Source: a bacterium (GTDB lineage Bacteria; Bacillota_I; Bacilli_A; Izemoplasmatales; Izemoplasmataceae). From it: a stretch of DNA of 57,519 nt. Shown one piece after another: positions 47,898 through 57,519 of this stretch. The stretch is from the NCBI GenBank assembly GCA_018400875.1, contig JAGYLV010000004.1, positions 1 to 57,519 of the forward strand, in the 5' to 3' direction. The number at the start of each line of letters is the position of its first letter. The first letter of the stretch is position 1. Made by a program: the position numbers and the translations under genes. Below the pieces are notes generated by a model, which saw only the letters and a list, made by a program, of their open reading frames with translations, was not told the DNA's origin and did not search any database.

Positions 47898-47966
47898 ATT
47901 TATAATTAATCTGTAAAAAACCAAACAAATTTCCAAAAAAAACGCTTTCATCATGTATACTATACT
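47879..47966 (+). promoter_or_regulatory. Promoter region of the ABC transporter operon with a cre-like site
   Basis: TTGTGA (47879-47884), 16 bases, TATAAT (47901-47906). Further on, the reverse strand of 47937-47951 reads ATGAAAGCGTTTTTT, 13 of 15 positions of the CcpA cre consensus WTGNAARCGNWWNCA; it would act as a roadblock. TATACTATACT (47956-47966) may hold a second -10. Pattern matches only. Confidence 0.4.
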
Positions 47967-48000
47967 GTTAATAAATTTTTTCTCTAGGAGCCCGCTAAAA

Positions 48001-49062
48001 TTGGAAATTAGATTAGAAAATTTAACCAAAGTTTTCACCAATAAAAAAACCACAAACACCCTTGCGGTAGATCAGCTAGATGTCACCATACCCTCTGGAA
48101 AACTCATCGGTTTATTGGGCCCATCAGGTTGTGGTAAATCCACAACGCTTTACATGATATCTGGCTTATTAAAACCCACTGAGGGCAGTATCTATTTTGG
48201 AGACGATGATGTCACAACCGTACCCCCTGAAGAACGCGGGATTGGGTTAGTCTTTCAGAACTATGCACTCTATCCACACATGACGGTTTTACAAAATATT
48301 ATGTTCCCGTTAGAAAACTTAAAAGTGCCCAAAGAAGAAGCGATGGAGCGGGCTCAAAAAATCGCTGACTTAGTGGGCATCGGGGAATTGATGAGTCGTA
48401 AACCTGCGCAACTATCTGGGGGCCAACAACAAAGGGTCGCCATTGCCCGGGCACTTGTTAAAGAACCACGCGTTTTATTATTGGATGAACCGTTATCTAA
48501 TCTAGATGCGAGATTACGTTTACAAACCCGTGAAGAAATTCGCCGGATTCAAAGAGAAACGGGAATTACCACAATTTTTGTCACCCACGATCAAGAAGAA
48601 GCAATGTCGATTTCTGATGAAATCATCTTGATGGATTTCGGGGTCAAACAACAAATGGGAGCTCCCCAAAATGTCTATGACGAACCGGCCAATTTATTCG
48701 CGGCGAAGTTTTTAGGGACCCCACCGATTAACTTGTTTGACGGGAAGATCTCTGCGAAAAAAATCAAACTCGGTCAAAGTGTTTTAGGAGAAACCAAAGA
48801 GTCGCCTAAAGACATCGTGATAGGGATACGTCCGGAAGGCTTTATCGTTCAAAAAGAAGGACCCATTCAAGCAGATGTTGAATTTGTCGAAACCATCGGC
48901 CGTGATACAACACTCATCATGATTGATCCGACCGATGAAACGAAACGTTTTAGAGCCATCGTGGATTCCGATCATAAAATCGAAGCGGGCCAATCGATCG
49001 CCTTAAATATAAAACCTCATAAAATGTATATCTTTAATCAACAAACAGGAGAACGTCTTTAA
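48001..49062 (+). CDS. ABC importer ATPase (MsmX/UgpC type)
   Basis: 353 residues from TTG at 48001 with AGGAG ten bases upstream (upstream in-frame ATG at 47953 lies in the promoter). Walker A GPSGCGKSTTLYMISGL, Q-loop FQNYALYPHMTV, signature LSGGQQQRVAIARAL, Walker B VLLLDEPLSNLDA, H-loop TIFVTHDQEEAM, and a C-terminal MalK-type regulatory OB domain (from about 240, KFLGTPPINLFDGKI). First gene of the transporter operon; this subfamily energises sugar, polyol and glycerophosphodiester importers. Confidence 0.94.
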   Translation: MEIRLENLTKVFTNKKTTNTLAVDQLDVTIPSGKLIGLLGPSGCGKSTTLYMISGLLKPTEGSIYFGDDDVTTVPPEERGIGLVFQNYALYPHMTVLQNIMFPLENLKVPKEEAMERAQKIADLVGIGELMSRKPAQLSGGQQQRVAIARALVKEPRVLLLDEPLSNLDARLRLQTREEIRRIQRETGITTIFVTHDQEEAMSISDEIILMDFGVKQQMGAPQNVYDEPANLFAAKFLGTPPINLFDGKISAKKIKLGQSVLGETKESPKDIVIGIRPEGFIVQKEGPIQADVEFVETIGRDTTLIMIDPTDETKRFRAIVDSDHKIEAGQSIALNIKPHKMYIFNQQTGERL

Positions 49063-49988
49063 TGTTAGAAGATAAGAGTAATGTTAAAGCGTGGTTTTAT
49101 TTAGCACCGGCCTTATTTTTGCTCACCATTTTTATTTTCTATCCGATTTTTAACGCACTATTTTTAGTGTTTTTAAGAGACTACAATTATTTACAAGGGA
49201 CCTGGGAAGGGTTCACCTTGTTCGAAAACTTCTTATACGTATTTAGAAATCAAAACTTTACCCAAGCGCTCACCAACACCATGATTATTACGTTTGTGTC
49301 TGTCCCCATTTCGGTGATCATCGCCTTGCTCATCTCGGTCTGGTTGAATTCTGTGCTTAAGCTTCGCGGCTTTTTCCAAACGATATTCTTCTTACCCTAT
49401 GTGACCAATGCGATTGCCATCGGAATGGCCTTTGCCTTTTTGTTCAACCAAAACTACGGTCTGATTAACACGATGTTAGGGTGGGTCGGATTAAATCCGG
49501 TCAACTGGGTCGGTTTAGGGGCCACCTGGGGCAATGCCATGTTTAGCTTACTGGTTTATGTGGTATGGGCATCACTCGCATTCAAAATCATGGTGTTTTT
49601 AAGTGGACTCCAAAACATCGATAAACAATATTACGATGCGGCACGTGTGGACTCCACCAAACGCTACCGAATTTTTAGACGCATTACCATTCCCTTATTA
49701 TCCCCGATGATTTTTTACATCACGATTACCTCATTCATTGGAGCCTTTAAAGCCTACACCCAAGTCATCGGGATGTTCGGGGTAAGACTTGGGCCTCCGG
49801 GCAATGATAAATCTTTGATTACCATTGTGGCCCTCGTGTATGATGCACTCGATCGGTCCGGGGTACCCGGGGCTTTATCGGAAGCCGCGGCGACCGCCAT
49901 TGTCTTATTCCTCATTACGTTAGTATTTACACTGATTAACATGCAAGTCAGTAAAAACCGTGTACATTATTCAGGAGGGGGCAAATAA
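49062..49988 (+). CDS. ABC importer permease 1 (MalF/UgpA type)
   Basis: 308 residues, six membrane segments. N-terminal AWFYLAPALFLLTIFIFYPIFNALF, and the cytoplasmic EAA loop as YYDAARVDSTKRYRIFRRITIPLLSP (about 202-227), which docks on the ATPase. Starts on the last base of the ATPase stop codon and abuts permease 2. Family CUT1 importers carry oligosaccharides or glycerophosphates; the substrate here is open. Confidence 0.93.
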   Translation: MLEDKSNVKAWFYLAPALFLLTIFIFYPIFNALFLVFLRDYNYLQGTWEGFTLFENFLYVFRNQNFTQALTNTMIITFVSVPISVIIALLISVWLNSVLKLRGFFQTIFFLPYVTNAIAIGMAFAFLFNQNYGLINTMLGWVGLNPVNWVGLGATWGNAMFSLLVYVVWASLAFKIMVFLSGLQNIDKQYYDAARVDSTKRYRIFRRITIPLLSPMIFYITITSFIGAFKAYTQVIGMFGVRLGPPGNDKSLITIVALVYDALDRSGVPGALSEAAATAIVLFLITLVFTLINMQVSKNRVHYSGGGK

Positions 49989-50884
49989 TGGTTTTAGATA
50001 CCGTCATGTATGGCGATGAAAAACAAAATCGCCGCAAAGCCAGAATTCGCTTCTCTTTAGTTCTTACGATGCTCATCCTCTTTGGGATTTTTGTGGTCAT
50101 CCCGTTTTATTGGATGATTTTAACGGCGTTTAAGACGGAAGCCCAAGTCTTAACCTCTCCACCTATCCTTTGGTTAAATCCAGTCAATTGGCAGTTTTCC
50201 AACTTTGCAACGGCCATGGATACGGCCCCGTTTTTAAGGTATATGGCCAATACGGTTTTAGTCTCTTCCATCTCAACGGTTGGGACGGTCATTACCACGG
50301 TATTTGCGGCCTTCGCGTTTGCGAGACTCAATTTTAATGGCCGCGATTTCCTCTTTATGATTCTCATTTCAACGATGATGATCCCCGGTGAAATCTTTGT
50401 CATTACCAACTTCTTAACAGTGGTAGAGCTTGGATGGATTCAAAATCAAACGTACATGAACGCCATACTCGCCATGACGCTTCCGTTTATGACCAGTATC
50501 TTTTACATTTTCTTCTTAAGACAATCCTTTAGACAAATTCCCGATGAACTATACTACGCGGCGAAAGTGGATGGGACCACCGATCTCAAATATCTCTTTA
50601 AGATTATGGTGCCGATTGCTCTTCCCACCATCATCACAATTACAATTCTCAATGCGATGGGGACATGGAATGCCTACATTTGGCCACGCCTTGTCACTCA
50701 GCAACAGGAATTTAGATTGGTATCGAATGGCTTGCGCGATGCCTTTAGCAACATTGCAGGAAGGATTCTTTACAACGAGCAAATGGCCGCCGCCTTACTG
50801 GTCACCTTCCCGCTCTTAGTGGTTTTCTTGTTACTTAAAAAATATATCATTCGTGGCGTGTCACGAAGTGGTATTAAAGGATAA
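49988..50884 (+). CDS. ABC importer permease 2 (MalG/UgpE type)
   Basis: 298 residues, six membrane segments, with PFYWMILTAFKTEAQVL after the first segment and the EAA loop YYAAKVDGTTDLKYLFKIMVPIALP (about 193-217). C-terminus basic and short. Start overlaps the stop of permease 1 by one base (GGAGG upstream). Pairs with permease 1 to form the channel. Confidence 0.93.
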   Translation: MVLDTVMYGDEKQNRRKARIRFSLVLTMLILFGIFVVIPFYWMILTAFKTEAQVLTSPPILWLNPVNWQFSNFATAMDTAPFLRYMANTVLVSSISTVGTVITTVFAAFAFARLNFNGRDFLFMILISTMMIPGEIFVITNFLTVVELGWIQNQTYMNAILAMTLPFMTSIFYIFFLRQSFRQIPDELYYAAKVDGTTDLKYLFKIMVPIALPTIITITILNAMGTWNAYIWPRLVTQQQEFRLVSNGLRDAFSNIAGRILYNEQMAAALLVTFPLLVVFLLLKKYIIRGVSRSGIKG

Positions 50885-50916: not shown

Positions 50917-52305
50917 ATGAAAAAAGGATTACTGTTAGCTGTAACCTTATTATTAGTACTCACCCTCAGTGCGTGCTTAGGGGGCGGGGGCCGCGAAGAA
51001 ACCACGGTCGATATTCCCGATGCACTCCCCAATGAACCCATTGAAATTGTCATTTGGCATGCGTTTGGCGAAGACAACCAAGCCTTGCTGCAAGAAATGT
51101 TTGATTCTTTCAATGAAGAATATCCTCAAGTCACCATCACTCAATTGGGTCAAGGGGGCTATGATGGTCTGAGAGAATCCACCATTCAATCGATCGTGGC
51201 GGGTACGACGCCAACCATCGTCTTTGGCTATCCCGATCACTTTGTAGAGTATTTGAACGGGAACGCCTTGGTGCCTCTCGATGAATACATTAACCATGAC
51301 GTTCATGGAGTCGATCTCGATGATTTTGTCGATGGATTCTTAGCCGAAAACCAACAATACTTAGACGGCAATCAGTATTCCATGCCGTTTGCCAAATCGA
51401 CCGAAATGGTGGTCTATAATAAAGATTTCTTTGACGCTCAAGGCGTTGAACTTTCCAGAACCACCCCGCTTACTTGGGATGAAGTCGAAGCGTTGGCAGA
51501 CACCATGGTGGGTAACGGCGAAAATCAATGTGACTTTATGTTTAACGCCGACAGTTCTTCAAACTTCTTCATCAATAGCTCACGTCAGTGGGACGCTGGG
51601 TATACAGACGGAGAAGGTAATATCTTAGTGGATAACGCCGACACCCGTGATATGCTCAATTACTTTAATGGTTTATTTGATGAAGGCATTATGAGTTTCC
51701 CCATTGAATGGGATGAAAACTATGGGTCAGAACCCTTCAAAGATGGACTCGTATGTATGTCTCAAGGCTCCACGGCAGGCACACGTTATAACATTCCCGA
51801 TGAAGAAAGTCCATTCAATGAGATGGGGATTGTGCCCGTCATTCAACGTGATTTAGACAACGCATCGGTCATGCAACAAGGACCCAACGTTGCCGTCATC
51901 TCAGATGCCGATAACAATCAACGCTTAGCAGCGTGGCTCTTACTTAAACATATGACTAACACTGAAAACACGGCCGACTTTGCGATGGCGACTGGGTATG
52001 TTCCAGTGAGAAAATCCGGCTTTGAAACCGCGGAATATCAAGAATTCTTAAGCATCGTCGATAAGTACGATGATGAAGGCCTAGAAGGATTAAGTCCTTC
52101 GGAACGTCTTGATTTACCCTTCGCGATGGCAGCAACCGTGGCCTTTGCGCAAGTCGATTGGTATCAATATGATCCAGCGTTTGTTGGCCGCGTAACCTCA
52201 TCAGGAGCCCGCCAAGAAGCAGGGCTTGCCTTTGAAGCAATTTATGCGGGCACACGAACGGTGGAAGAAGCCATCGAACGGATGTTGAATCAACTGGGTC
52301 AATAA
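50917..52305 (+). CDS. ABC importer substrate-binding lipoprotein (family 1)
   Basis: 462 residues. Signal peptide MKKGLLLAVTLLLVLTLSAC with lipobox LSAC (Cys about 20), then a Gly-rich linker and a family 1 binding protein: EPIEIVIWHAFGEDNQALLQ, TPTIVFGYPDHFVEYL, a MPFAKSTEMVVYNKDFF block and the WLLLKHMTN-type end. Captures the solute outside the membrane. The leader is AAAACGAAATTAAAAAATT plus TGTGGAGG, nearly repeated before the 53223 gene. Aromatic residues in binding sites cannot be assigned without a structure. Confidence 0.93.
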   Translation: MKKGLLLAVTLLLVLTLSACLGGGGREETTVDIPDALPNEPIEIVIWHAFGEDNQALLQEMFDSFNEEYPQVTITQLGQGGYDGLRESTIQSIVAGTTPTIVFGYPDHFVEYLNGNALVPLDEYINHDVHGVDLDDFVDGFLAENQQYLDGNQYSMPFAKSTEMVVYNKDFFDAQGVELSRTTPLTWDEVEALADTMVGNGENQCDFMFNADSSSNFFINSSRQWDAGYTDGEGNILVDNADTRDMLNYFNGLFDEGIMSFPIEWDENYGSEPFKDGLVCMSQGSTAGTRYNIPDEESPFNEMGIVPVIQRDLDNASVMQQGPNVAVISDADNNQRLAAWLLLKHMTNTENTADFAMATGYVPVRKSGFETAEYQEFLSIVDKYDDEGLEGLSPSERLDLPFAMAATVAFAQVDWYQYDPAFVGRVTSSGARQEAGLAFEAIYAGTRTVEEAIERMLNQLGQ

Positions 52306-52324: not shown

Positions 52325-53191
52325 ATGAAAAAAATCTTCACACTTCTCATCATGATCTTTCTCAGTGGAATGCTTTTTGCGTGTGAAGAAGCTGAACCTG
52401 AAACACAAGTATATGAGATTTCCACCGAATGGTCGGATGCGCTTGACTTACAAGCGGTGGAATACGAAGGTAGAGAGTTCTTAAGAGATGGCATCGGTGA
52501 AGTGACTTTAGACCGGTGTGTAGACGGCGATACCACGTATTTTACCTACGGCTCAACGCGCCCATTTAGCGTCCGTTATTTAGGGATCGATACACCTGAA
52601 ATGACGGCGAAAGTTCAACCGTGGGGTCGCGCCGCATCTATTTATAATTGCGAAATCTTAGAAAATGCTGAAACCATTGTCTTAGAAATGGATGATTCAG
52701 CGGGAAGATTGGATAATTATGGCCGGTATCTAGCCTATGTATGGGCGGACGGAAAACTGGTCAATTTACAAACGGTCGAACAAGCCTACGCGCCGGCTGT
52801 AGGAACCGGTGGACTGAAATATGGCGACGAATTATTTGCGGCTCAAAGCCATGCCCGGTTAACCCAGTTAAGAATCTGGGGGGAAGAAGATCCGAGTTTT
52901 ATTGGAGAGCCGGTTGATCTGACCATTGATGAACTACTCAATAACCCGGAAGCTTATCTCGACCGATTTGTAAATGTCGAAGGAACCATCACTGCCCGTG
53001 AAGGTGGCGATTTCTACTTTGGGAATGATTCAGACAGTATTTTCGTGTATACCCAAGGTCAAATCACATCGATCATCGCGGATGAATTTGCGGTCGGCAG
53101 TGAATTGATACTCAATAATGTCTTCTTGACCGATTACAGTGGTCAGTGGCAACTAACTAATTTCAATATCCGGGAAGTCACTTTCCCATAA
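52325..53191 (+). CDS. Lipoprotein nuclease: SNase domain plus OB-fold
   Basis: 288 residues. Lipobox LFAC (Cys20). SNase (thermonuclease) domain about 57-186 with all catalytic positions of staphylococcal nuclease: VDGDT (Asp67, Asp69), SVRYLGIDTPE (Arg84, Asp89, Glu92) and NYGRYLAYVW (Arg134). Cys65 and Cys109 flank the active-site strand and could form a disulfide outside the cell. Residues about 196-288 look like an OB fold (DRFVNVEGTITAREGGDFYF...) of the kind found in secreted nucleases. It should cut DNA or RNA at the cell surface. AAGGATG upstream; 20 bases after the binding-protein gene. Confidence 0.9.
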   Translation: MKKIFTLLIMIFLSGMLFACEEAEPETQVYEISTEWSDALDLQAVEYEGREFLRDGIGEVTLDRCVDGDTTYFTYGSTRPFSVRYLGIDTPEMTAKVQPWGRAASIYNCEILENAETIVLEMDDSAGRLDNYGRYLAYVWADGKLVNLQTVEQAYAPAVGTGGLKYGDELFAAQSHARLTQLRIWGEEDPSFIGEPVDLTIDELLNNPEAYLDRFVNVEGTITAREGGDFYFGNDSDSIFVYTQGQITSIIADEFAVGSELILNNVFLTDYSGQWQLTNFNIREVTFP

Positions 53192-53222: not shown

Positions 53223-55856
53223 GTGAAAAAATTATTATTAGCAATGGCATTAGTGGCAGGTGTGTTCACCCTCGCCGCCTGTGGTGGTGAAACCGAAGAA
53301 CCCGCCAATCAAGATTTAGAATTGGTGGAAGATGCACGGGATTCATTATTGCTTTCCGGGCTTGATTCTGTCACGAGTAACTTAAATTTACCCAGCTCTG
53401 GCCGTAATGACTCGACGATTACCTGGTCATCCAGTGACCCATCGGTGATTGCGAATGACGGAACTGTCACGCGTCCCGCTGAAGGTGAAGATAACGTCAC
53501 TGTAACGCTAACCGCGACGTTAACGCTCAACGATGAAAGTGTCACTCGCTCGTTTGAAGCGTTTGTCTTAGCGTTTGAGCCGAGTAATCTATTCACCGAT
53601 TACACCGAGCTTTATGAAGCGTCCAACATTAATGATTTGATCACCGCCGAAGGCGTCGTTTCAAGCGTCTTTGATGGGGGGTTCTTTGTCTATGATGGCG
53701 CTGAACATTTAGGCGTTTACATTGGCTCAGGCGGTACCGGTGGGGGCCTTGTTGAACTCGGCGATGAAGTCCGTGTTACGGGACTTTACGCACGCTATTA
53801 CACCTTGTATCAACTCGGGGATGTAGAAAACGTTGAAGTTTTATCATCGGGCAATTCGGTAGACGCTGAAGCGACCCCGATTACCATCGAAGAATGGAAT
53901 GCGCTTACCTTAGACGATCCGCTGATTCATGGGGATTTCTATGAAGTCACCGGAACCTTGGTTCAACAAGGTGAGTTTAACAACTTATTCTTAACATCCA
54001 GTGAATCCGATGATGAAATTTTAGTCTATTACTACTCCGACGCGGATTCCTTGGAAGCCTTAGAAGCATTTATTGGCCGCACCATTACTTTAGAACTCGT
54101 ATACTATACCAACCACGCATCCAACGGCATCATGGCCTCTTACTATGGGGATGGCACCGATGTGGTGGTCGCTGAACTGACCGACGCACAAAAACTTGAA
54201 CTTGACACCGAAGTGTTAGAAGGTATGTCCTTTGTGACCTATGGCGACGCGGTTGAACTCCCTGCCACAGGTTCTAACGGAACCACCTTCTCAAACTGGG
54301 CATCTGGTGATGCAGACCTCGTGGGGGATGACGGTTCTTATGGAACCACGCCGGCAACACCCACCGATATTACATTTACTGCAACCGCAACTTTGGGCGA
54401 TGAAACCTCTGAAGTTGAAATTACCGTACAATCCTTGGCTGAAATTAGCATTGAAGATGCCTTAGAAGTCGATCCCGGCGGATTTGTTTGGTTCTCAGGG
54501 AAAGTCGTTGACATTATTGATGGCAACAGTGGCTTCTTCTTATACGATGAAACCGGCATCATTTATGTGCGTGATACCGACTTCTATGATGAAAACGCGG
54601 ACGCCGTTGAAATGGGCGATTCATGGACCTTTGTCGGCGCACGAACGGATTACCGTGGACTGCCTCAAGTGGCGTCCATTGATTTCTTTGAAGCCAGCGA
54701 TGAAACCTTTGCCGATGAACCCGATCCAACCTATGCGACGGTTCAAGACATCGTGGAAGGTAACGTCGTACCTGGACAAAAATATCTCGTTTATGGAACA
54801 GCCACAACGGTTGAAGAACAATACACCAACTATGAACTTCAAGATGGCGATTTTGCCATTCAACTGCACTTCCAAACCAATAACTCAGCCATTGCCGATT
54901 ATGATGGCCAAGAAGTCATTTTAGAAGTCCGTCCCTTCCAATGGGATAATGATCCAAGCTATGTGGCATACTTCGGAACCGCCGATGATGTCGATGCCGA
55001 TATTAGTGATGATGAAAAAGCTGAAGTGGCCGCCAAAGCACTTCGTTTACCCTTCGATGAAAACGGCGACGGTGTCTCAGAAACTGTCTACACCGATGTC
55101 ACGCTCCCAGCCACCGGTAAATTTGACCTTGATTTATCTTGGAGCTCAAGCGCAACGGGAAGCTTAGCGAATGATGGAGCCGTCACCTTAGGCGCAGAAG
55201 CGGTTGATGTGGTCTTAACATTAACTGTCGGCACAGTCACCCGTGAATTCACCGTTGAAGTTGGACCTGAACCCATGGATGTCTCCAGTGCCCTTTTAGC
55301 CCCAGACGGCGATACCATCTTAGTGGAAGGTGTCGTGGTCAGTCTTGATCCTCACACCAATGGATTCTTTATCCAAGATGCCGATGGCACCGGAATCTAC
55401 GTCGGTGACTTTGGGGATGATGAACTCAAATCCCAAGTCGCAGTAGGCGATAAAGTATGGGTCTTAGGAACACGCGATGGCTATACGCAATATGGTAATA
55501 TGCAAGACCAAGTATGGGAAGCCGAATTCATCGCAAAAGCTTCAGAAGATAACGAAGTCTTTGTGACGAAAGATATGACGGGTGATCAAATCATCGCTGA
55601 TTTCCCGAATGCCAACTCAAGACGTTTTGAGGCGACTTTAACCGTGGATGAATACGATCAATATTCCCACGTATTCTTTGAAACCACCGATGAAAGTTTA
55701 GAAATGCGCCTCACCTTTGACATTCGTAATGTTGAAGGATGGGATGAAGATACCTATCCTGTAGGCACGGAAATCACCATTGCCTTCACCACGCAACGCA
55801 TTCACTTTGATAATTATCGTGTCGTGGATGTTGTGATTGTCCAAGGAGCCGAATAA
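53223..55856 (+). CDS. Large surface lipoprotein built of three Ig-OB-OB units
   Basis: 877 residues from GTG at 53223 (TGGAGG seven bases before; ATG at 53217 sits too close to that site). Lipobox LAAC (Cys about 20). Numbered from the ATG: Ig-like 30-118, OB 122-212, OB 218-320; Ig 322-406, OB 408-496, OB 501-592; Ig 595-683, OB 685-778, OB 779-878. The Ig parts share TWSSSDPSVIANDGTVTRP-type strands and LPSSG/LPATG turns; the first OB of each unit shares the pattern G-V-V, GFFVYD/GFFLYD/GFFIQD, then GVYI/IYVRD/IYVGD and GDxVxVxGxR. Very acidic, no catalytic motif. OB arrays commonly bind single-stranded nucleic acids or sugars. Confidence 0.85.
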   Translation: MKKLLLAMALVAGVFTLAACGGETEEPANQDLELVEDARDSLLLSGLDSVTSNLNLPSSGRNDSTITWSSSDPSVIANDGTVTRPAEGEDNVTVTLTATLTLNDESVTRSFEAFVLAFEPSNLFTDYTELYEASNINDLITAEGVVSSVFDGGFFVYDGAEHLGVYIGSGGTGGGLVELGDEVRVTGLYARYYTLYQLGDVENVEVLSSGNSVDAEATPITIEEWNALTLDDPLIHGDFYEVTGTLVQQGEFNNLFLTSSESDDEILVYYYSDADSLEALEAFIGRTITLELVYYTNHASNGIMASYYGDGTDVVVAELTDAQKLELDTEVLEGMSFVTYGDAVELPATGSNGTTFSNWASGDADLVGDDGSYGTTPATPTDITFTATATLGDETSEVEITVQSLAEISIEDALEVDPGGFVWFSGKVVDIIDGNSGFFLYDETGIIYVRDTDFYDENADAVEMGDSWTFVGARTDYRGLPQVASIDFFEASDETFADEPDPTYATVQDIVEGNVVPGQKYLVYGTATTVEEQYTNYELQDGDFAIQLHFQTNNSAIADYDGQEVILEVRPFQWDNDPSYVAYFGTADDVDADISDDEKAEVAAKALRLPFDENGDGVSETVYTDVTLPATGKFDLDLSWSSSATGSLANDGAVTLGAEAVDVVLTLTVGTVTREFTVEVGPEPMDVSSALLAPDGDTILVEGVVVSLDPHTNGFFIQDADGTGIYVGDFGDDELKSQVAVGDKVWVLGTRDGYTQYGNMQDQVWEAEFIAKASEDNEVFVTKDMTGDQIIADFPNANSRRFEATLTVDEYDQYSHVFFETTDESLEMRLTFDIRNVEGWDEDTYPVGTEITIAFTTQRIHFDNYRVVDVVIVQGAE

Positions 55857-55862
55857 CAGACT

Positions 55863-55893
55863 AAAAAGGGCTACTTCGGTAGCCCTTTTTTTC
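55863..55893 (+). terminator. Terminator after the Ig-OB lipoprotein gene
   Basis: AAAAAGGGCTAC, loop TTCG, GTAGCCCTTTTT and more T (55863-55892); a very strong hairpin with the stable TTCG loop. Confidence 0.92.
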
Positions 55894-55937: not shown

Positions 55938-56855
55938 ATGTTTAGATGGATCATATTGGTCCTGGTTTTAACCTTAACTGCGTGTCAAAATCAGCCCCTA
56001 GTTTTACCCGATTTAGCGGGACAAACGCAAGAAGAAATCGAAGTAACTTTAGAAGCCCTTGATTTAGAAGTGGATTTTATTGAGCGAACCTTTGTGACAC
56101 TTGATGAATCGCGTGAGTTTATTGAATATGGTCAGCTTAAACGGATCGGTGACCCTTTTGAACCAGGGGATTATATTACCGTCATTGTGAGTGCGTCTAA
56201 AATTGATGAGACCATTTATTACGTGCCATCTTTATTGCCATACGATGGCCCTAGACTTTTAGAATCGTTCTTTGAATTTCCGTATGTGAGCGAACATCCG
56301 GATGGACTCAAAGGAGGCGGTAAAGTCTTTGAAGTCACCTTACAAGATAACAATGGGTGTGTGGATGGAGATACCGCCCGGTTTGAAGTCCCAGAGGATT
56401 TTCAATCGTATACAAACACCCCTTATATCAGCGTGCGTTTTCTGAATTTTGATACCGCGGAAACGTTCGATGGCGGGGAAGAAGTGTTTGGTAAACCGGC
56501 TTCCGTATTTACGTGCGATGCGTTAGAAGAGACTTCCGCCATTTACCTTCAAACCGACCCAGGAGATTTTCTCTTTGACCGCTATGGCCGGACCCTCGCA
56601 TGGGTCTGGATTGAAGTCGACGGCAATATCGAACTCCTCAATTATCACGTCGTCCGGGCCGGCCTCGGCGAAGTGATGTATTTATACGGAGCCGGTGAAA
56701 CCGACACGACCGTCGTGGATGGGTTAACTTACACCGAATGGATGTACGAAGCTGAACGCCTTGCTGAAAACGAATCCCTTGGGATTCATGGAGACTTACT
56801 GGATTATTATTGGGATTACGAAGCCGATGCCCCTAATCCATATACGTGGCCTTAG
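55938..56855 (+). CDS. Lipoprotein nuclease: PASTA domain plus SNase domain
   Basis: 305 residues. Lipobox LTAC (Cys16). Residues about 22-86 have the PASTA pattern (LPDLAGQTQEEIEVTLEALDL ... PFEPGDYITVIVS). SNase domain about 128-285: VDGDT (Asp143, Asp145), SVRFLNFDTAE (Arg167, Asp172, Glu175) and DRYGRTLAWVW (Arg218), so all catalytic positions are kept. Cys141 and Cys193 stand like the Cys pair of the other nuclease. C-terminus ends in a WDYEAD...TWP tail. PASTA normally binds peptidoglycan or muropeptides and could fix the nuclease to the surface. AAAGGATG upstream of ATG. Confidence 0.88.
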   Translation: MFRWIILVLVLTLTACQNQPLVLPDLAGQTQEEIEVTLEALDLEVDFIERTFVTLDESREFIEYGQLKRIGDPFEPGDYITVIVSASKIDETIYYVPSLLPYDGPRLLESFFEFPYVSEHPDGLKGGGKVFEVTLQDNNGCVDGDTARFEVPEDFQSYTNTPYISVRFLNFDTAETFDGGEEVFGKPASVFTCDALEETSAIYLQTDPGDFLFDRYGRTLAWVWIEVDGNIELLNYHVVRAGLGEVMYLYGAGETDTTVVDGLTYTEWMYEAERLAENESLGIHGDLLDYYWDYEADAPNPYTWP

Positions 56856-56863
56856 GAGAAAGT

Positions 56864-57519
56864 ATGATTACAACCATTAAGAATTGGATTGAATCCGCCG
56901 AAACGATTGTCATACACCGGCATCATGAACCTGATTATGACGCCTTAGGATCGCAGTGGGGACTCAAATATTTAATTGAGGATAATTATCCCGAAAAAAA
57001 GGTTTTCGTTTTAGGTTTAAATAATCATCTCAATGCCTTGCCGCCCATGGATGAAGTCGCAGATACGATATTTCAAGATGCCTTAGGGATTGTGGTGGAC
57101 GTGTCACAAACGCACCGCGTAGATGATGCGCGTGTTTTAAAAACACCTAAAAAAATGGTCATTGATCACCATCAAAATCCCTCCGATTTTGCGGATCTTT
57201 TTTATCATCAACCTCAGTCGATTGCCGCCGCTGAAGTCATTACACTTTTAGCGTTGGAACTCGGTTGGAAGATTACTTATCAAAGCGCCCACGCATTGAT
57301 GCTTGGCATCATTTCTGACAGTGGCCGTTTCTTGTATAAAGGTGTCACGGATAAAACGTTTGAAGCCGCCAGTATATTAATGAAAACGGGACTTGATTTA
57401 AATGCGATGTATGAATCCATGTATACGGATTCCCTGAGTTATAAACGATTGAGGGGTTACGCGCTGAGACAATTTCAAGTCTTAAAAAGTGGCGTGGCGG
57501 TTTTAAGAAATGGGAAAGA
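56864..57519 (+). CDS. DHH-family phosphoesterase (NrnA-like oligonucleotide hydrolase), 3' end outside the window
   Basis: 218 codons visible from ATG at 56864 (AGGAG upstream), still open at the window end. Motifs: HRHHEPDYDALGSQ (motif I, His/Asp metal ligands), DVS (motif II), IDHHQNP (DHH motif III) and GIISDSGRFLY (motif IV). Members such as NrnA degrade 2-5-mer RNA or DNA and pAp to mononucleotides. The missing C-terminal DHHA1 domain cannot be judged. It starts nine bases after the PASTA-nuclease stop, so both are probably one transcript. Confidence 0.9.
   Translation, partial: MITTIKNWIESAETIVIHRHHEPDYDALGSQWGLKYLIEDNYPEKKVFVLGLNNHLNALPPMDEVADTIFQDALGIVVDVSQTHRVDDARVLKTPKKMVIDHHQNPSDFADLFYHQPQSIAAAEVITLLALELGWKITYQSAHALMLGIISDSGRFLYKGVTDKTFEAASILMKTGLDLNAMYESMYTDSLSYKRLRGYALRQFQVLKSGVAVLRNGK

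Follow-up and report, generated by a model that had tools for sequence, protein, structure and literature searches.

A surface lipoprotein with three Ig-OB-OB units, a probable nucleic-acid-binding component of the DNA-degradation operon of Izemoplasmatales

The window analysed here, a stretch of 57,519 nucleotides (contig JAGYLV010000004.1 of the Izemoplasmataceae assembly GCA_018400875.1), ends in an operon that encodes a large lipoprotein, here termed the array protein. Our main conclusion, to which we assign a probability of about two in three on the basis of gene neighbourhood and fold, is that the array protein is a non-catalytic, nucleic-acid-binding surface lipoprotein of an operon that scavenges DNA or RNA, and that it serves the importer of that operon. 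Its anatomy is real and well supported, while the function is proposed with moderate confidence. The operon is already known and the role of the array protein has probably been mis-stated in print; the repetition of the Ig-OB-OB unit and an occurrence that extends to other families of the class are new relative to the published locus. Neither the operon and its publication nor the OB pair shared with an SNase had been noticed in the preliminary description of this DNA.

Anatomy of the array protein

A GGAGG motif lies 7 nt upstream of GTG 53223 but 2 nt upstream of ATG 53217, which makes the GTG the better start (Table 1). The preliminary description had called the product a surface lipoprotein, and both the open reading frame and its LAAC lipobox are present. 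Three matches to Pfam aBig_2 (PF20578; 135 bits against a cut-off of 27) mark the Ig domains, and a profile of the whole unit, built without the window protein and without its three genus siblings, matched residues 33-304, 322-578 and 598-866 with 256, 153 and 136 bits and gave no match in 500 shuffles. The AlphaFold2 model of the whole chain (alignment of 23 sequences, mean pLDDT 87) reads Ig, OB, OB three times over, each unit containing two predicted five-stranded barrels with the strand order b1-b2-b3-alpha-b4-b5, and the first OB pair modelled alone (98 sequences) reached a pLDDT of 92 and a pTM of 0.87. Sequence and model thus bear out the threefold Ig-OB-OB division and the OB folds proposed earlier, and the shared signature was located in the first OB of each unit as described (GFFVYD at 155-160, GFFLYD at 439-444 and GFFIQD at 716-721, numbered from the ATG).

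BLASTP comparison between the units gave 4.8e-13 for units 1 and 3, 2.5e-7 for units 1 and 2 and 2.1e-7 for units 2 and 3, a similarity above background between diverged copies that agrees with the earlier view of an old triplication. Diagonals about 270-290 residues apart had been expected, and those at 291 and 277 were found: the best ungapped self-diagonals have offsets of 572, 291 and 277 residues and scores of 88, 55 and 46, where 30 shuffles reached 45 at most, so that the 277 diagonal by itself is barely above chance, whereas the gapped unit comparisons are well above it.

A strong hairpin with a TTCG loop and a run of seven T separates the array gene from the SNase2 gene (55863-55892; the terminator listing has it for the minus strand only). 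Lying directly 3' of the lipoprotein gene, it suggests, as far as sequence can tell, that the SNase2 and DHH genes may form a separate transcription unit.

Table 1. Coordinates of the operon genes and of the parts of the array protein in the window
Feature	Position	Strand	Basis or remark
ABC ATPase, MalK/UgpC type	47953..49062	+	Pfam, NCBIfam
ABC permease 1	49062..49988	+	Pfam, NCBIfam
ABC permease 2	49988..50884	+	Pfam, NCBIfam
Solute-binding lipoprotein (SBP_bac_8; weak match to mycoplasma lipoprotein P68 family)	50917..52305	+	
SNase lipoprotein 1 (SNase1), C-terminal OB of the same family as the array	52325..53191	+	
Array protein, non-catalytic lipoprotein with three Ig-OB-OB units, 877 aa	53223..55856	+	from GTG 53223; 879 aa from ATG 53217
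Lipoprotein signal peptide ending in LAAC, Cys20 from GTG	53223..53282	+	sequence
Unit 1 Ig domain (aBig_2)	53313..53576	+	Pfam, AlphaFold2
Unit 1 tandem OB pair (GFFVYD in first OB)	53577..54170	+	comparison with relatives, AlphaFold2, Foldseek
Unit 2 Ig domain	54180..54440	+	Pfam, AlphaFold2
Unit 2 tandem OB pair (GFFLYD)	54441..54986	+	comparison with relatives, AlphaFold2
Unit 3 Ig domain	55005..55268	+	Pfam, AlphaFold2
Unit 3 tandem OB pair (GFFIQD)	55269..55853	+	comparison with relatives, AlphaFold2
Putative intrinsic terminator, GGGCTAC-TTCG-GTAGCCC and seven T	55863..55892	+	sequence; directly 3' of the lipoprotein gene
SNase lipoprotein 2 (SNase2)	55938..56855	+	
DHH phosphoesterase, cut by window end, without signal peptide	56846..57517	+	

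The operon and its distribution

The gene order is ABC ATPase, two permeases, solute-binding lipoprotein (SBP), SNase1, array protein, SNase2 and two DHH phosphoesterases, and the genes upstream of the array gene lie on one strand with small gaps. The match of the SBP to the P68 family (2e-8) is below the cut-off. The reading frames of the DHH proteins leave no space for a signal peptide, which places their action inside the cell; in relatives, the 3' side of the locus carries two DHH/DHHA1 genes followed by a Na/Pi cotransporter with PhoU. A phage or plasmid origin was rejected, as tblastn gave no match. The SNase2 lipoprotein (55938-56855) has a PASTA-like N-terminal stretch that is weak in the window (15.5 bits) and scores 25.7 bits in L041.

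Sequences similar to the array protein were found in 55 of the 61 genomes searched among relatives, and a collection search with a five-sequence alignment gave six loci. The operon arrangement spans Izemoplasmatales and other families of the class. Among loci chosen by score, so that the counts are not unbiased frequencies, ABC/SBP genes stand just upstream of the array gene in 52 of the 58 with visible upstream genes, and outside the order the operon occurs in all of the 20 best-scoring loci and in 10 of 17 weaker ones, two of the remainder being cut by contig ends. Intact main proteins usually have three OB pairs, with a range of two to five.

The same OB pair stands C-terminal to the SNase domain in SNase1 of relatives, where the SNase1 of the window has one OB; in L142, an SNase1 with OB pair is followed by DHH, with no array protein. 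Conversely, SNase1 is absent and the array gene directly follows the SBP gene in eight operons (L065, L105, L108, L112, L113, L130, L131 and L145; in L108 the two are separated by a broken initial piece of the array gene), and this retention without SNase1 indicates that the array gene belongs with the importer and not only with the nuclease. OB-pair proteins also occur outside the operon in some members of the class (L132, L136, L138 and L139), and two loci (L062 and L066) encode, likewise outside the operon, large proteins that join OB pairs with collagen-like repeats.

In a genome of the same genus as the window (L036, G003:C38:58001-75307), the SBP, SNase1, the array lipoprotein and the second DHH have broken frames, with dnaX, recR and SNase2 apparently whole, which may reflect loss of the system or assembly errors. 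Elsewhere in the window's own genome, an S41 peptidase lipoprotein with aBig_2 (L054, C13, 601-2739) is the source of a second weak match.

Capture of nucleic acids and the alternatives

Foldseek searches of the PDB with the whole chain ranked the p204 HINab-DNA complex first and also returned CST, Cdc13/Stn1 and other HIN-200 domains, while the OB pair alone matched Teb1, HIN-200, POT1 and RPA at TM-scores between about 0.3 and 0.46, and a sequence search of the PDB with the OB-pair profile gave YgiW, RPA subunits, Stn1 and an EEP nuclease. HIN-200 proteins (IFI16, p204, AIM2) likewise carry two tandem OB folds, theirs being DNA binders, and together with POT1, Teb1 and RPA they are the best structural matches of the window pairs; however, they are eukaryotic and share about 10% identity with the window pair at a TM-score of about 0.45. 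Judged from these low scores of the model, the folds are the same but their mutual arrangement differs.

The preliminary description had stressed that the protein is very acidic and had taken this to argue against DNA. The acidity is confirmed (pI 4.05; 167 D+E and 32 K+R), but the conclusion drawn from it does not hold, given that the SBP (4.05), SNase2 (4.05) and SNase1 (4.09) are just as acidic, with the cytoplasmic ATPase at 5.78, and that higher values occur among the orthologues from other families of the class (pI 4.5-5.1; L103 5.1, L106 4.8). Acidity common to all surface proteins of the operon and reduced in orthologues is not a functional trait, and we rejected it as a clue to the ligand, since it extends to all secreted operon proteins including the nucleases. 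Across 166 OB pairs, the aromatic positions of F157, Y168 and Y194 are conserved at 83-86%, and there is no conserved basic column (K/R exceeds 29% in none). Nucleic acid, if it is a ligand, would more likely be held by stacking or by bridging cations; the cation-bridged binding raised earlier is possible, and the conserved aromatics could also be core residues.

In the capture model that we favour, the array protein would be tethered by its lipid anchor to the only membrane that a wall-less cell has, the Ig domains would act as spacers between the OB pairs, and the pairs would hold extracellular DNA, RNA or oligonucleotides, mainly single-stranded, through the conserved aromatics and not through basic residues. 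The SNases would cut the polymer held there, the fragments would be handed to the SBP and the ABC importer, and the cytoplasmic DHH phosphoesterases would finish the short oligonucleotides that enter. The hand-over and the import of oligonucleotides are the least certain steps. The presence in the operon of DHH genes, whose products are cytoplasmic, suggests that short oligonucleotides enter the cell, which would go further than the import of nucleosides proposed in the literature.

Several observations support the model: the synteny with ABC/SBP genes, the downstream DHH genes, the OB pair fused to SNase, the nucleic-acid-binding fold relatives, the conserved aromatics and the induction of the orthologous zrk13 and zrk29 loci (see below). 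By analogy, so does the match of the OB part to ExeM/NucH, taken with reports that deleting the two-OB region of ExeM, or the OB of Xds, abolishes nuclease activity (PMC6085458, PMC6746945). PurF and PyrB (aspartate carbamoyltransferase) had no match in four genomes of the window's genus (G000-G003), one of them 96% complete, which fits salvage as the purpose of the operon, and the operon may accordingly be the main nucleotide supply of the genus. Nucleotide auxotrophy is likely in this genus, whose genome measures roughly 1 Mb at most. Against the model stand the facts that proteins, sugars and metals are OB-fold ligands too, that the net charge is strongly negative, that the TM-scores of the pair to HIN-200 are about 0.4-0.45, and that some OB-pair proteins lie outside the operon.

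The main rival reading is that the OB pairs bind the nucleases or the SBP of the operon and assemble them on the membrane, with little or no contact to nucleic acid. Proteins are frequent ligands of OB folds, SNase has a fold of OB type as well, several partners could be taken up by repeated units, and both the co-location with nuclease and SBP genes and the lack of conserved basic residues would suit such a scaffold. We nevertheless consider it unlikely: SNase itself can bear this OB pair as a direct fusion, an arrangement in which docking of a protein is less needed, the nearest folds are nucleic-acid binders, and the operons that keep the array gene without SNase1 weaken it further.

Binding of a polysaccharide or another glycan, with the ABC importer taking up sugars, is far less probable. 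Oligosaccharides can be ligands of OB folds, the Ig domain has its best match in a domain of the GH43 arabinanase AbnA (43% identity, rmsd 1.1 over 88 columns in Foldseek), and both importer and SBP fall into the sugar/glycerol-phosphate class, but the identified operon genes include no glycoside hydrolase, and two nucleases and two DHH phosphoesterases stand in conserved order. Carbohydrate binding, which the preliminary description had left as a question, thus found no support in a neighbourhood of nucleases, DHH phosphoesterases, phosphate transporter and ABC importer. In mycoplasmas, moreover, an importer of the same class lies beside an SNase, and nucleic-acid precursors are its assigned substrates (PMC3585158). 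The described SNase-ABC operons of mycoplasmas (MAG_5040, mhp379, MG_186; binding lipoproteins P80/MslA) combine an SNase lipoprotein, a sugar-class ABC importer and an SBP lipoprotein as here, but unlike the window they have no Ig-OB array, and the match of the SBP to P68 is weak. In L125, from a mycoplasma-like genome, SNase is present with one TGA in its frame and the adjoining genes had no match to ABC profiles, so the parallel rests on the published descriptions.

Surface glycan-binding lipoproteins of the SusE/SusF type are non-catalytic, combine an Ig spacer with tandem binding domains and are encoded next to hydrolases and an importer. If the capture model is right, the array protein would work alike, although the two are not homologous and the array protein differs in having OB folds in place of glycan-binding domains, a wall-less Gram-positive lineage and an ABC importer in place of SusCD. 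Conceivably, though we would sooner bet against it than for it, the whole family is the nucleic-acid counterpart of such lipoproteins, a tethered OB array that captures extracellular DNA or RNA and passes the oligonucleotides made by the nucleases on to an ABC importer of short oligonucleotides rather than nucleosides, to be finished by DHH enzymes of nanoRNase type, in several families of reduced wall-less bacteria and their relatives.

Published loci and the nuclease annotation

The operon is the published DNA-degradation locus of Ca. Izemoplasmatales (Wasmund et al. 2021, PMC8289736), in which an ABC importer, extracellular nucleases and DHH-type 3'-5' nucleases occur together with a large secreted protein carrying a nucleic-acid-binding domain; the window likewise holds importer, extracellular nucleases, DHH nuclease and large protein in one locus. 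The large protein is listed there with a nuclease domain and a lamin-tail domain (PMC8289736), whereas the window orthologue has neither. Length and content point to a 1,049-aa open reading frame of L043 as that large protein, and by Pfam and NCBIfam it has three aBig_2 domains, a lamin tail and OB pairs but no nuclease domain. Two further loci belong to the cultured strains zrk13 (L047) and zrk29 (L145, genome G040), and both loci are reported to be induced by nucleic acids (PMC8397711, PMC10470597), the zrk13 cluster with a gene named EddB by about 20-fold with DNA (Zheng et al. 2021, PMC8397711). This EddB is likely the array gene of L047, whose product is the only ExeM-like protein among those scanned there.

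No catalytic domain was found in the window protein by Pfam, NCBIfam, PDB sequence search or AlphaFold2 and Foldseek, as the preliminary description had held, and a hidden one was ruled out, the model consisting of Ig and OB domains only. The NCBIfam ExeM/NucH profile matches the OB part at residues 166-229, immediately behind the GFFVYD motif (2.1e-6, profile positions 35-97 of 546). This match falls far short of the 300 bits set as cut-off for the family, and the EEP catalytic domain of ExeM/NucH is absent, as is a lamin tail, which is common in orthologues and C-terminal in many. The zrk13 orthologue matches ExeM at 5e-38, but at profile positions 23-174 of 884, the lamin tail alone. From these alignments, the resemblance appears confined to the non-catalytic OB and lamin-tail parts. 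The array proteins share with ExeM, NucH, Xds and EddB the extracellular location, the tandem (YhcR-like) OB region, required for activity in ExeM, and in many orthologues the lamin tail; the window protein differs in lacking an EEP domain, in having three OB pairs with Ig domains between them and in being a lipoprotein. That the array protein is itself an EddB/ExeM-like nuclease, as the published annotations and the 5e-38 match would have it, is therefore the least probable reading, already contradicted at the sequence level by the placement of these matches, by a model made of Ig and OB domains and by the absence of EEP or other catalytic domains from the window protein and the orthologues scanned.

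Extracellular DNA is a large source of phosphorus and carbon in marine sediment, and Izemoplasmatales are reported specialists. If the large protein, possibly the most strongly induced gene of the locus, turns out to be a receptor rather than a nuclease, the annotations in print will have to be corrected, and the question arises whether the importer takes oligonucleotides.

Some related loci carry additional genes. In the bacterial family f3, endonuclease I genes with a Big_3 Ig domain lie on the opposite strand inside the operon region (L145:8100-9383 and L060:11383-12540), one of them where SNase1 is missing, and in some relatives a lipoprotein that joins a metallo-beta-lactamase fold to an Ig domain is inserted between the array lipoprotein and SNase2 (L044:7835-9082).
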